A stretch of 64,000 nt of DNA from Arboricoccus pini (GTDB taxonomy: Bacteria > Pseudomonadota > Alphaproteobacteria > Geminicoccales > Geminicoccaceae): NCBI RefSeq assembly GCF_900187945.1, contig NZ_FYEH01000002.1:248001-312000 (forward strand). The letters run 5' to 3'. Each line of letters starts with the position of its first letter. Position 1 is the stretch's first letter. The position numbers and the translations under genes were made by a program. This document shows, one piece after another, positions 26,277 to 34,355 of the stretch. The notes below the pieces were generated by a model that saw only the letters and a list, made by a program, of their open reading frames with translations, had not been told where the DNA came from and ran no database searches.

Positions 26277-26927
<651 letters not shown>

Positions 26928-27145: not shown

Positions 27146-28576
27146 ATGACATTGGGTTGCAAGACGTCTGCGGACGTCATCAAGGCGATCAGGAGCGAAG
27201 CCGTCGACATGGTCGACGTGCGGATGACGGACATGCTGGGCGCCTGGCAGCATATCTCCTACCCTGCCAAGTTCTTCGAGCAGGATCAGATCGACGAAGG
27301 CCTGGGCTTCGATGGGTCCTCGCTGCGGGGCTTTAAGGAGATCAACCAGTCCGACATGCTCCTTATGCCGGACCCCACCACCGCCTTCATCGATCCGTTC
27401 CTCAGCCGCAAGACGCTGGTGATGATCGCCGACGTCAAGGATCCGGTGACGGGCGAGCTCTATAACCGCGACCCGCGCGGCGTCGCCAAGAAGGCGCGCG
27501 ACTATCTAAAGAGCACCGGCATCGGCGATACCGCTTATTTCGGCCCCGAGGCCGAATTTTTCGTCTTCGACGACGTTCGCTACGGCACCGGCCAGCATTT
27601 TGCCCATTTCGAAGTCGATTCCGCCGAGGGCCATTGGAATACCAATCGCGACGAGGGGCCCAACCTCGGCTACAAGATCCGCGCCAAGGAGGGCTATTTC
27701 CCCTGCCCGCCCACGGATACGCTGATGGACCTGCGTTCCGAGATGGCGCTGGAAATGATCAAGATCGGCCTCACGGTCGAGTGCCAGCACCACGAGGTGG
27801 CAACGGGCGGCCAGTGCGAGATCGACATGAAGTTCGACGAGCTGCTGGCGATGGCCGACCATCAGATGAAATACAAATACGTCGTCAAGCAGACGGCGCG
27901 TAAATTCGGCAAGACCGCCACCTTCATGCCGAAACCGCTCTTTGGCGATAATGGCTCGGGCATGCACTGCCACCAGTCCATCTGGAAGGGCAAGACGCCG
28001 CTTTTTGCTGACAGTGCCGGCTATGCGGGCCTCTCGGACATGTGCCGCTGGTATATTGGCGGCCTGCTCAAGCATGCTGGCGCCATCCTGGCCTTCGCCG
28101 CTCCCACCACCAACTCCTATCGCCGCCTGGTGCCGGGTTACGAGGCACCGGTCAATCTCGCCTGGTCCTTGCGTAACCGCTCGGCCGCCTGCCGCATCCC
28201 GATGTATTCCGACAGTCCCAAGGCCAAGCGCGTCGAGTTCCGCTGTCCCGATCCCTCGGCCAATCCCTATTATGCCTTCTCGGCCATGCTGATGGCGGGC
28301 TTGGACGGCATTAAGAACAAGATCGAGCCGGGCGATCCCATCGACAAGAACATCTACGACCTGCCGCCCGAGGAAGCAGCCCTGATCAAGACCGTGCCGG
28401 GCTCCCTGGCCGACGCCCTGATCGAGCTCGAGAACGATCACGAGTTCCTGCTCGAGGGCGACGTCTTCACCCCCGACCTGATCGAGACGTATATCGCCTA
28501 TAAGCGCGCGAACGAGCTCGATCCGATCCGGCTCCGCCCGCATCCGCACGAATTTTTCATGTATTACGACTGCTGA
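27146..28576 (+). CDS. glnA: Glutamine synthetase type I
   Basis: GlnA joins ammonia to glutamate with ATP as a dodecamer. All key residues are present in the 476-residue protein: E135/E137 (GPEAEFF), H216/E217 and E225 ([11 protein letters not shown]), H274 (GSGMHCH), E333 (PGYEAP), R345 (NRSA) and E364. The adenylylation site Y404 (NIYDLPPEE), target of GlnE, marks it as the regulated alpha-I-beta type. It follows glnB by 218 structured bases with a strong GGGAGG site. A terminator separates it from a diverged paralogue. Confidence 0.97.
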
Positions 28577-28616: not shown

Positions 28617-28642
28617 CCCCCGCTTCGACAGGCGGGGGTTTT
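28617..28642 (+). terminator. Rho-independent terminator after glnA
   Basis: A 7-bp stem CCCCCGC / GCGGGGG with an 8-base loop, followed by TTTT-G-TC-TTT. It should end the glnB-glnA transcript before the GS paralogue. Confidence 0.85.
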
Positions 28643-28764: not shown

Positions 28765-30174
28765 ATGAGCCACGCAGAGAGCATCATCGAACGCCTGCAG
28801 GCGGAAGGGGTGCGAGTGGTCGATTTCCGCTTTACCGACCTGGCTGGGCACTGGCGACACACCTCGATCGATGCCGCCAGCCTCGATGCCCGCCAACTCG
28901 AGCAGGGCTTCATGATCGACGGCTCTTCCATACCCGGCTGGCGCGATCCCACCGAGGCCGACGTGGCGCTCAAGCCCGATCTCACGTCGGCGCGCCAAGA
29001 TCCCTTCGCCGCCCAGCCCACCTTGATCCTCTTGGCCAACGTCGTCGATCCGGCGACGGGCCAAGGCTATGAGGGTTGCAGCCGCTCGGTCGCCGCACGA
29101 GCGGAGGCCTGGCTTGCGGGTCATGCCGCGGCCGACCGGATGACCACCAGCGTGGCGACCGGCTATTTTATCTTCGACGATGTCCGCATCGAGACGAGTG
29201 CCGCCCGCAACGCCATCGAGATCAATGGCAGCGAGAGCGAAGCCGCCGGCGGCCAGGCCTATGCGAGCGGCAATCCAGGCCACCGGCCTCAGCCCTGCGC
29301 CGCCCGATATGCGCTCTCCCCGGCCGACCACCAGAGCGACATCCGCGCCGAGATCACAAGTATCCTCGCCAGCCTGGGCTTTACCGGCATCCGCCATGAC
29401 CATGGCCAGTCGCCCATGCAGGGTCGCCTCGCCTTCAAGGGCGACCACCTGACCGGCACGGCCGATCGCATCCAGCTCATGAAATATGTGGTGCAGCACG
29501 TGGCCGCCTCCTACGGCAAGAGCGCCAGCTTCATGCCTCGCCCCATGCCCGAAAGCATGGGCAGCGGCATGAGCCTGCAGCACAGCCTCTGGAAGCGGGG
29601 CAAGCCGGTCTTCGCCGGCTCGGGCTATGCCGATCTCAGCCCGCAGTGCCTTTCCTTCGTGGCCGGCATCATGCGCCATGCCCGCGCTCTCAATGCCTTC
29701 ACCAACCCGACAACCAACAGCTATCGACGGCTGCGCAAAAAGGCGAGCGAGCCCGTCTATCTAGCCTATGCCGCCTATAATCGCTCGGCCGCGGTCCGCA
29801 TTCCCTTCGCCGCCGAACCGGCCGCGAAAACCGTCGATATTCGTTTCCCCGATCCGGCGGCAAACCCTTATCTGGCGCTCGCCGCCATCATGATGGCCGG
29901 TATCGATGGCATTGAGCAAAAGCTTGAGCCCGGCGACGCCATGGATCGTAATCTCTACGATCTGGGCCCGGACGAGGTCGATGACCTGCCAACCGTTGCG
30001 CTCTCGCTGCGCGAGGCTCTGGACGCGCTGGAGCACGATCAGGATTTCCTTCTGCGCGGCGACGTCATGAGTGAGGATCTCATCGCCAGCTATGTCAGCC
30101 TGAAACGCCAGGAGATTGAGCGGATCAGCCAGGCCGTCATCCCGCTTGAATACGAGCTTTATTACGGCAGCTAG
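28765..30174 (+). CDS. Glutamine synthetase-like pseudoenzyme
   Basis: A 469-residue paralogue aligning end to end with glnA, but lacking the catalytic metal site. Replacements, glnA to this protein: E135 to A131, E137 to G133, E217 to H213, E225 to R221, H274 to S270, H276 to Q272, E333 to S328 and E364 to D358. Kept are the FDGSS-type loop (IDGSSIPGW), NRSA Arg (R340), FPDPAANPYLA and the adenylylation site NLYDL with Y398. The frame is intact with normal base composition, so it is maintained as a protein. It could join mixed dodecamers, bind PII or GlnE, or bind a ligand. A role in synthesis of gamma-glutamyl amides seems unlikely without metal ligands. It follows the glnA terminator and has no clear promoter. 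Confidence 0.8.
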   Translation: MSHAESIIERLQAEGVRVVDFRFTDLAGHWRHTSIDAASLDARQLEQGFMIDGSSIPGWRDPTEADVALKPDLTSARQDPFAAQPTLILLANVVDPATGQGYEGCSRSVAARAEAWLAGHAAADRMTTSVATGYFIFDDVRIETSAARNAIEINGSESEAAGGQAYASGNPGHRPQPCAARYALSPADHQSDIRAEITSILASLGFTGIRHDHGQSPMQGRLAFKGDHLTGTADRIQLMKYVVQHVAASYGKSASFMPRPMPESMGSGMSLQHSLWKRGKPVFAGSGYADLSPQCLSFVAGIMRHARALNAFTNPTTNSYRRLRKKASEPVYLAYAAYNRSAAVRIPFAAEPAAKTVDIRFPDPAANPYLALAAIMMAGIDGIEQKLEPGDAMDRNLYDLGPDEVDDLPTVALSLREALDALEHDQDFLLRGDVMSEDLIASYVSLKRQEIERISQAVIPLEYELYYGS

Positions 30175-30581
30175 ATCTGCCCGTCCGGCCGTGGCCTGAA
30201 GAAGAAGCCGCCACGATCGAAATGCCTGAACCCGGGCCCGCCCGGCCGGCTCCAGCCGCCATCGTTGCCGCTCCAGCCTCGTGGCCGTCCCCAGCCGCGG
30301 CTGCCGCCCCAGCCCTGCCCGCGACTATCATGGCGGCGGTCATTCCAGCCATCAAAGCCGCCGCCCCTCTCGCGGCCACGCCGGCCATGAGAATGTCCGC
30401 CCAGCCGATCGTTCCGACTGCGGCCATCTCGCCTATCATTGACCGGCCGCCAGTCATGAGGCCAGCGACTGTCGTGAGCCGCGTGGATGCCGTCGAGGCG
30501 CAATGATTCGGCGCTGGCAGGCAGGCACACGGGTCCGAGCAATCCACCCAGAAGAATGAGCACCTTCAGATGGTGCCGCAT
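30171..30581 (-). CDS. Small secreted Gly/Arg-rich protein, unknown
   Basis: A 136-residue protein with a clear signal peptide (MRHHLKVLILLGGLLGPVCL, cleavage after about PASA). The mature part is low-complexity, rich in G, R, W, H and D (SRGWGRPRGW, GFRHFDRGGFFF). No domain was recognised. It resembles small periplasmic G/R-rich proteins of unknown role. Convergent with the GS paralogue, with a 4-bp overlap of stop codons. The composition makes an accidental frame possible, but the signal peptide supports it. Confidence 0.55.
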   Translation of the reverse strand: MRHHLKVLILLGGLLGPVCLPASAESLRLDGIHAAHDSRWPHDWRPVNDRRDGRSRNDRLGGHSHGRRGRERGGGFDGWNDRRHDSRGQGWGGSRGWGRPRGWSGNDGGWSRPGGPGFRHFDRGGFFFRPRPDGQI

Positions 30582-32114: not shown

Positions 32115-32381
32115 CAAGCAGCAACTCCTGTGGTAGAAGACGGAAGCGGACTTGACGACGGGGCAGCCACTCGCCATCGAACCTGATGAGCAAACGGACG
32201 GCCGCCAGTCGTGCTGGATGTAACCATTCCAGGGTGGCTCATGAAAGGCCGATGACTGGGACGCATCGACGCTGCGTATCCCGAGGGGCGGCTGAGGCCA
32301 ATCGTGGCTGTCTCTTGGAATGAAGAAAAGCAGGAACGACGAGCGGCGGCGGCAGCCTCTCGCACTCATCTTGGAGTTGGG

Positions 32382-34355
32382 ATGTCGGATCTTTTGGACC
32401 TCGCGGGTGGGAATGCTTCCGCCAAAAGCTATACGGCGGAAGATATCGAGGTCCTGGAGGGACTTGAGCCGGTAAGGCGACGGCCCGGCATGTATATCGG
32501 CGGCACCGATCTGCATGCCATGCATCATCTGGTGGCCGAGATTCTCGACAATGCGATGGACGAGGCGGTCGCCGGCCACGCCAGCCGGATCGAGATCGAG
32601 CTCGAGCAGGGCAATCGAGTCACGATCCGCGACAATGGCCGCGGCATCCCCGTCGACCCGCATCCGCGCTTTCCCGACAAAAGCGCACTCGAGGTCATCA
32701 TGACCACGCTGCATTCCGGCGGCAAATTTGGCGGCAAGGCCTATGCGACCTCGGGAGGCCTGCACGGCGTCGGCGTATCGGTCGTCAACGCGCTCTCGGC
32801 CGATCTCCTGGTCGAGGTGGCGCGCAATCGCATGCTCTGGCAGCAGCGCTTCGAGCGTGGCCAGCCGCTGGGGCCAGTTGAGGCCGCTGGAGCGGCACCC
32901 AACCGTCGCGGCACCACGGTCATCTTTCGGCCCGATCCCGAAATCTTCGGAACCGACAAGGAGTTCAAGCCCGCACTCCTGCATCGGATGGCGCGCAGCA
33001 AGGCCTATCTCTATCGCGGCGTGGAGATCCGCTGGAAATGCGATCCCGCTCTCCTTGATCCCAAAGACGGTGTGCCGGCGAGCGATACCTTTCATTTTCC
33101 GGCCGGGCTCGAGGATTTCCTCAAATCGCTGCTCTCCGAACGCGAACTCGTGGTCGATGAGCTTTTCACTGGCGAGGCCGAGCTCGAGCAGGGCGGCCGG
33201 GTGGAATGGGCGATCGGCTGGCCGCTGGATGAGGAAGGCTATCAGGGCTGGTACTGCAACACGGTGCCAACACCGCTGGGCGGAACGCATGAGAACGGCC
33301 TGCGCAATGCACTGGCCCGCGCCTTTCGTGCCCATGGCGAGCGAACGGGCATGAAGAAGGCGACCACGCTTACCGCCGACGATGCCTGCGGTGGTGCTGC
33401 CATCCTGCTCTCGCTTTTCATCCGCGAGCCGCAGTTCCAGGGCCAGACCAAGGAAAAGCTGGTCAATACCGAGGTGACGCGCATCGTCGAGGCGGCCATC
33501 AAGGACCGCTTCGAGCTCTGGCTCGGCGAACATGGCGGCACGGCGACCAGGCTCTTGGAGCATGTCGTCAACCGGGCGGAGGAACGCCTGGCCCGTCGGA
33601 AGGCCAAGGAGGAGGTCGGCCGCAAGTCGGCGACCCGCCGGCTCAGGCTGCCCGGCAAGCTCGCCGACTGCTCCAACGACGAGCGCCAGGGGACCGAGAT
33701 CTTCCTGGTCGAGGGTGACAGCGCGGGCGGCTCGGCCAAGCAGGCACGCCAGCGCGAGATCCAGGCGATCTTGCCGCTGCGCGGCAAGATCCTCAATGTC
33801 GCCAGCGCCACGGCCGACAAGCTCAAGGAAAACAAGGAGCTCCAGGACCTGACGACGGCGCTCGGCTGCGGTGCTGGCAAGCATTTCCGCTCGGAGGACT
33901 TGCGCTACGAGCGCGTGATCATCATGACCGACGCCGATGTCGACGGGGCGCACATCGCAGCGCTCCTCATCACCTTCTTCTATCGCGAGATGCGGCCCTT
34001 GATCGAACGCGGCCATCTTTATCTGGCCCAGCCACCGCTCTATCGCCTCGCACATGGTGGCACGATCGCCTATGCGCGCGACGAGCGCGACCGGCAGCGG
34101 CTGACCGAGACCGTCTTCAAGGGCAAGAAGAATATCGAGGTGGGCCGGTTCAAGGGCCTGGGCGAGATGAACCCCTCGCAGCTCAAGGAAACCACCATGG
34201 ACCCGAGAAAACGCCAATTGCTGCAGATCAGGATCGAGGATGTGGAAGGCAAACCCACCTACGAACTGGTCGACGATCTCATGGGCAAGAAGCCCGAGCT
34301 GCGGCTGGCCTTCATCCAGGACAATGCCAAGCTGGCGCCCACCCTGGATGTGTAA
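32382..34355 (+). CDS. parE: DNA topoisomerase IV subunit B
   Basis: ParE is the ATPase half of topoisomerase IV, which decatenates daughter chromosomes. The 657-residue protein has the GHKL motifs EILDNAMDEA, DNGRGIP and SGGLHGVGVSVVNALS, the TOPRIM EGDSAGGSAKQAR and DADVDGAH metal site, and the closing FKGLGEMNP. The residues LEGLEPVRRRPGMYIGGTD open the ATPase domain. The ATG at 32382 follows TTGGAG; a GTG at 32304 would add 26 unconserved residues. parC is not in the window. It is followed closely by chorismate mutase. Confidence 0.93.
   Translation: MSDLLDLAGGNASAKSYTAEDIEVLEGLEPVRRRPGMYIGGTDLHAMHHLVAEILDNAMDEAVAGHASRIEIELEQGNRVTIRDNGRGIPVDPHPRFPDKSALEVIMTTLHSGGKFGGKAYATSGGLHGVGVSVVNALSADLLVEVARNRMLWQQRFERGQPLGPVEAAGAAPNRRGTTVIFRPDPEIFGTDKEFKPALLHRMARSKAYLYRGVEIRWKCDPALLDPKDGVPASDTFHFPAGLEDFLKSLLSERELVVDELFTGEAELEQGGRVEWAIGWPLDEEGYQGWYCNTVPTPLGGTHENGLRNALARAFRAHGERTGMKKATTLTADDACGGAAILLSLFIREPQFQGQTKEKLVNTEVTRIVEAAIKDRFELWLGEHGGTATRLLEHVVNRAEERLARRKAKEEVGRKSATRRLRLPGKLADCSNDERQGTEIFLVEGDSAGGSAKQARQREIQAILPLRGKILNVASATADKLKENKELQDLTTALGCGAGKHFRSEDLRYERVIIMTDADVDGAHIAALLITFFYREMRPLIERGHLYLAQPPLYRLAHGGTIAYARDERDRQRLTETVFKGKKNIEVGRFKGLGEMNPSQLKETTMDPRKRQLLQIRIEDVEGKPTYELVDDLMGKKPELRLAFIQDNAKLAPTLDV

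Follow-up and report, generated by a model that had tools for sequence, protein, structure and literature searches.

The window, a 64,000-nucleotide stretch of an Arboricoccus pini contig (NZ_FYEH01000002.1, positions 248,001 to 312,000), carries two neighbouring genes for proteins of the glutamine synthetase (GS) family. GS is one of the central enzymes by which cells assimilate nitrogen, and it serves as a model for how enzymes are regulated. Its gene, glnA, follows glnB in the window, and the second gene, designated here PS for a predicted GS-fold pseudoenzyme, comes next, followed by a nucleoside hydrolase gene and parE. The relevant features are as follows:

26589..26927, plus strand: glnB (PII protein), 112 aa; best NCBIfam match PRK10858 at 180.1 bits, under the equivalog cut-off of 202
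27146..28576, plus strand: active-type glnA (C208 type), 476 aa, with its catalytic residues in place; belongs to a GlnA lineage other than that of PS
28617..28638, plus strand: terminator-like hairpin with a T run, between glnA and PS; a consensus match only
28765..30174, plus strand: PS, predicted GS-fold pseudoenzyme, 469 aa; orthologue of the native alphaproteobacterial glnA by position and phylogeny
32304..34355, plus strand: parE (DNA topoisomerase IV subunit B); TIGR01055 at 772.9 bits, cut-off 723.35

The hairpin is one of eight terminator-like sites in the scanned region, compared with 2.8 +/- 1.5 in shuffled sequences, and hairpins also separate glnA from PS in five other adjacent pairs, as found by a scan of G+C-rich DNA run without shuffled controls. 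Given the terminator-like hairpin between the two genes, PS may be transcribed from its own promoter; a search for a sigma-70-like site upstream of the window PS, on the PS strand, found none. The adjacency of PS and glnA that the first-pass annotation put forward holds in the window but is not general: of the 22 genomes where both genes were located, 6 have PS directly 3' of glnA. Tail to tail with PS, a putative minus-strand frame (30171-30581) could encode a small Gly/Arg/Trp-rich protein with a signal-peptide-like start, and its stop overlaps the PS stop codon.

The PS frame starts with ATG and stays open over 469 codons, and the product matches both Pfam domains of the family, Gln-synt_N and Gln-synt_C. 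As first described, it aligns end to end with the neighbouring GlnA (40% identity over 465 aligned residues); identity to the GlnAs of the window's family as a whole is about 38-43%. On TIGR00653, the model for type I glutamate-ammonia ligase GlnA, PS scores 454.6 bits, above the curated cut-off of 429.15 (the active GlnA of the window scores 661.7). Because PS clears this equivalog cut-off, NCBIfam would still label it an active GlnA, and automatic annotation may fall into the trap of assigning the genome a second working GS. A search of solved structures returned GlnA proteins as the top matches, and the AlphaFold monomer model (mean pLDDT 78.7, pTM 0.84) is that of a GS subunit, with a TM-score of 0.86 to the E. 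coli GS structures 7w85 and 8pvg. Low confidence in some loops of the model was considered as a sign of decay and dropped, since the active GlnA, modelled as a control, is weak in the same loops and in one more; the weak loops of PS are thus uninformative on this point.

The case for a pseudoenzyme rests on the active site. Residues are numbered after E. coli GS, from alignment to its row, and we take R339 and R355 to have roles at the phosphates. Per the excerpted text of PMC6529630, the metal ligands of GS are E129, E131, E212, E220, H269 and E357; glutamate is bound by E131, N264, G265, R321 and R359; H271 and R344 contact the ADP phosphates; D50 and Y179 serve ammonium; and E327 belongs to the flap. 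At the six metal-ligand positions the window PS has, in order, A, G, G, R, S and D. The first-pass annotation had listed replacements at these sites and at E327, and six of the seven were read correctly (A, G, R, S, S and D), the exception being E212, which is replaced not by His but by Gly, within RHDHG. Further losses in the window copy are E327 to S, Y179 to R, N264 to M, H271 to Q and R355 to T, while D50, G265, R321, R339, R344, R359 and the NLYDL motif are retained. The losses of R355, E357 and H271 suggest that the nucleotide site may be gone in this particular copy.

The same kind of loss recurs in orthologues across the order, which argues for more than chance. Among 25 aligned PS orthologues, E212 and N264 are lost in all and E131 in 24, so that no PS copy has the full metal-ligand set of TIGR00653-type enzymes (E212 in 0/25, E131 in 1/25). 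E220 is kept in 13 copies, H269 in 8 and S53 in just 4. The E129 column holds Glu in 16 copies and Asp in 8, the window copy alone having neither, and R355 and E357 are kept in 24/25, with the window copy again the sole exception. Invariant throughout are D50, G265, R321, R339, R344, R359 and Y397. Within the same alignment, every metal ligand is kept in 13 GlnAs of the family and in 11 native GlnAs, by which we mean those of other alphaproteobacterial families. It is thus strongly implied by the sequences that PS lacks GS activity. The genome of the window holds two more GS-like paralogues, L003 (G000:C5) and L004 (G000:C14), in which all six metal ligands are kept and E327 is changed, like substrate-shifted ligases; L003 lacks D50 and E327, and L004 lacks E327 and Y179.

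Orthologues of PS, for which the first-pass annotation had asked, occur in all 24 family genomes that are at least 90% complete, distributed over 14 genera, and GlnE is encoded in each of the 24. A search of the order returned the same 24 genomes as the family search; in this collection the order is therefore one family. When less complete assemblies are included, 25 of 28 family genomes carry a full PS. Of the others, G006 has a PS interrupted by unknown bases and was left out of the 25-copy alignment and later analyses, G012 (86% complete) has the family GlnA and no PS, and G011 (70% complete) gave no GS match. No PS was found outside the order among 387 class genomes searched at 1e-152, a threshold that misses weaker PS-like copies, including divergent ones of the family itself (1e-111 to 1e-146): six genomes matched, five from the window's family and one (G392) with an active-type native GlnA. 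A search for plasmid-borne PS yielded 83 plasmid records matching P0001 at 1e-60, all below 60% identity and none pointing to PS; among the best 25 of the 83, top identity was 46.6% and the feature, where named, was glnA.

Evolutionary rates bear out the earlier proposal of a GS pseudoenzyme under selection, with orthologues order-wide, catalytic residues lost and dN/dS below 1. Nei-Gojobori estimates range over 0.05-0.41 for pairs of related PS genes. Within genera g2 and g6, PS gives 0.05-0.17 and GlnA 0.05-0.13 (for pairs with both available); the values are 0.21 and 0.11 in genus g16, and 0.32-0.41 and 0.11-0.19 in g10/g11. The window copy paired with six relatives gives 0.27-0.43, with GlnA at 0.14-0.28, values obtained near synonymous saturation. 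The reading of PS as a single decaying copy was accordingly rejected, given orthologues throughout the order and dN/dS well under 1, and these ratios indicate that PS is held under purifying selection. The constraint is distributed unusually: relative to active GS, the conservation pattern of PS is inverted. For PS and natives respectively, mean entropy is 1.82 and 0.08 bits at positions 129-131, and 1.53 and 0.24 bits at 208-222. The metal strands are the least kept parts of PS, and the best kept are the D50 loop (0.71) and the stretch 339-360 (0.74), continuing to 387. Several replacements are themselves conserved among the 25 copies (R394 and L199 in 25/25, G212 in 20/25, P264 in 19/25), and we read these residues as probable marks of a new constraint. 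Residues specific to PS include I49, P55, R58, E328, R384 and R394. The PS genes of G009, G010 and G019 (L033, L067 and L066) are shorter (454-456 aa) and faster-evolving, with dN/dS of 0.32-0.41.

The ancestry of PS was approached through trees, indels and gene order. A careful tree of 57 rows, 22 of them PS and with four partial duplicates dropped, places all PS rows in one group (100/100). This group joins the GlnAs of other alphaproteobacterial families (98/82), and the next to attach are E. coli and a row from Rickettsiales (100/100). The active GlnAs of the family fall outside, towards the rows from Ignavibacteriota, Deferribacterota, Acidobacteriota and Bacillota. A larger quick tree, built without eleven rows of close relatives and without L103-L105 (absent through a motif filter), still sets PS apart from the family GlnA, but the attachment point differs, PS branching between the natives and the rest, with E. 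coli nested among the natives. The AU test used a 62-row set from which eight rows had been removed as long or unstable; five of these were PS, the longest PS rows among them. Placing PS together with the family GlnA was rejected (p-AU 0.00014, at a cost of 101 log units), and a branch with SH-aLRT 100 separates PS plus the natives from the remaining rows. Indels agree: 25/25 PS and 24/24 natives lack the residue G217 of E. coli, which E. coli shares with 23/23 family GlnAs. Each of these 23 also has single insertions after 285 and 346, neither of which occurs in any PS or native.

Gene order adds a syntenic marker, parE, which is found 3' of both native glnA and PS. It lies on the same strand 3' of native glnA in 8/14 regions (1.1-6.6 kb) and 3' of PS in 14/26 regions (0.06-5.1 kb), some of the other 12 being short contigs; this latter count omits G023, whose parE-cluster frame missed the filter. 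Regions fetched around family GlnA without PS have parE in 0/14 and glnB upstream in 13/14 (the remaining contig ends there), and where a region holds both genes (nine cases), glnB always lies upstream of the family GlnA. The trees, indels and gene order together identify PS as the native alphaproteobacterial glnA, not a duplicate of the neighbouring glnA. In G018 (L043) and G040 (L112), glnB stands 2.0-2.3 kb upstream of glnA, compared with the usual distance of about 0.1-0.2 kb.

As to the active GlnA, the window protein finds matches in 122 of 144 class genomes at 1e-80, and outside the family only G163 (64%) and G054 (61%) exceed 58% identity; a search of 397 genomes of the phylum adds three with matches beyond 1e-185, 60-64% identical. 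These GlnAs (G331:C104, G341:C1 and G479:C14, corresponding to L103-L105, together with G163:C1, L076, and G054:C1, L077) come from genomes dispersed over other families and a single further class, and they are possible relatives of the glnA donor. The label "foreign" for the active glnA rests on the tree. Two genomes, G056 (L135 and L136) and G082 (L137 and L138), hold two native-type GlnAs each, 53-56% identical to the window GlnA, and one copy of each pair lacks glnB upstream; L135, L137 and L138 have intact catalytic motifs (the motif filter did not return L136).

What the sequences support for PS is thus homology to GS, loss of catalytic residues, order-wide retention, a native origin and constraint. 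From these we arrive at the reading, to which we give a probability of about three in four, that PS is a displaced native GlnA kept under selection as a non-catalytic protein, its partner being left open. PS would have been the order's original alphaproteobacterial glnA; a different GSI-type glnA would have taken up a place between glnB and the old gene and assumed glutamine synthesis; and later rearrangements would have split the glnA/PS pair in many genomes. The old gene, often still 5' of parE, would have lost its metal and glutamate sites yet stayed under purifying selection. Its product most likely still forms a GS-like assembly that retains the Asp50 loop, the Tyr397 loop and a cluster of phosphate-binding arginines, and it would act not in catalysis but by binding nucleotide and a nitrogen-control partner (GlnE, GlnB or GlnA); the oligomer, the nucleotide binding, the partner and the absence of GS activity are what we infer. 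A non-catalytic nucleotide- and partner-binding assembly is favoured because most copies still have the phosphate arginines together with the D50 loop and the 388-410 loop, and because GlnE is universal among the 24 genomes; a fixed partnership with GlnA is not favoured, given that in most genomes PS and glnA are not linked. That PS works through a partner in the nitrogen cascade seems to us to stand somewhat below even odds, and the fullest version, in which the whole order swapped its GS for a foreign one and the old enzyme became a dedicated nucleotide-binding regulator in the GlnE/GlnB nitrogen cascade, is possible but on balance doubtful.

Known systems place this reading in context. In descent, length, both domains, position before parE and the NLYDL loop, PS corresponds to alphaproteobacterial GlnA (GSI, TIGR00653), from which it differs in having lost the metal and glutamate ligands. 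The closest parallel is lengsin (LGSN) of the vertebrate lens, which the excerpted text of PMC2667176 presents as a dodecameric remnant of GSI that lacks catalytic activity; in lengsin too, a class I GS stayed on in a different role once another GS had replaced it. By its sequence PS shows this lengsin-like pattern of a displaced GSI retained under selection with its catalytic residues lost, a likeness of kind and not of descent from lengsin. Unlike lengsin, PS is bacterial and order-wide, its GSI displaced by another GSI and not by GSII; it lacks the changed N-terminal region described for lengsin in that excerpt, and is known from sequence and a monomer model. A survey of open-licence PMC papers by title and the beginning of the abstract, with most subscription papers and all of bioRxiv outside its scope, found no bacterial GS pseudoenzyme. 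If the displacement reading is true, the order offers a natural experiment on a core enzyme that was supplanted and whose old copy survived for non-catalytic use, and it could help to part the non-catalytic roles of GlnA from glutamine synthesis.

Several alternatives must be weighed against a displaced native GlnA with its partner left open. The first-pass annotation had suggested that PS might form mixed rings with GlnA, titrate GlnE or PII, or sense a ligand. One is that PS serves as a decoy or alternative GlnE substrate, or as a PII sink, via its NLYDL loop, and so tunes GlnA adenylylation. The NLYDL site is indeed retained, as first noted: it is present in the window PS, Y397 is found in 25/25 copies, and D393, R394, D398 and L399 stand in columns at least 96% conserved. 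The ubiquity of GlnE and the position of glnB upstream of the active glnA also fit. However, the tyrosine, offered at the outset as a clue to adenylylation, is weakened: of 61 GS-family rows, a set that includes four partial duplicates, 60 have Tyr in its column, among them Bacillota sequences and two paralogues other than GlnA, and the residue is thus not diagnostic of adenylylation. Moreover, position 394 is Arg in all PS but Lys in native GlnA, and the loop, with an entropy of 1.02 compared with the PS average of 1.22, is just somewhat better kept. We consider the decoy unlikely, although it retains some weight.

Alternatively, PS could join mixed rings with active GlnA and alter its activity. 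The shared fold and full length would permit this, the D50 loop, which completes the site of the neighbouring subunit, is among the best-kept parts, and the genes adjoin in those 6 of 22 genomes. Against this stand the separate GlnA lineage, the low identity to the family GlnA (about 38-43%), several indel differences, the rarity of S53 (4/25) and the terminator-like hairpins that part the genes where they are adjacent, and mixed rings seem improbable.

The window copy itself might be relaxing or decaying while its orthologues remain functional. It is alone among the 25 in lacking R355 and E357 and in having neither Glu nor Asp at 129, its branch is long (0.63), and its dN/dS exceeds that of GlnA for the same pairs (0.27-0.43 vs 0.14-0.28). 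Nevertheless, its 469-codon frame is intact, dN/dS is well under 1, and the GlnA of the window is also longer-branched (0.20 vs 0.074 for G005), so local decay is distinctly improbable.

There is a slim chance that PS works as a GS-like ligase on some other substrate. The superfamily is rich in such ligases, and in most PS other than the window copy E129 (or Asp), E357 and the phosphate arginines persist. Known gamma-glutamyl ligases of this kind (PauA7, GlnA3 and GlnA4) are, like PS, GS paralogues annotated as glutamine synthetase or GS-like. Yet in these ligases the six metal ligands are all in place and it is D50, E327 and Y179 that differ, as the excerpted PMC6529630 has it, PauA7 and GlnA4 being cases in point, and L003 and L004 likewise keep all six. 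PS is the reverse, with D50 kept in 25/25 and E212 lost in 25/25, which makes a ligase unlikely.

Finally, an origin of PS from the neighbouring glnA, as the first-pass annotation implied, in the form of a recent tandem duplicate that lost its active site, deserves scarcely any credence: the genes adjoin in the window and five other genomes, but the AU test (p 0.00014) rejects it under the model and sampling used, and the indels, the 40% identity, and the synteny with parE all speak against it.
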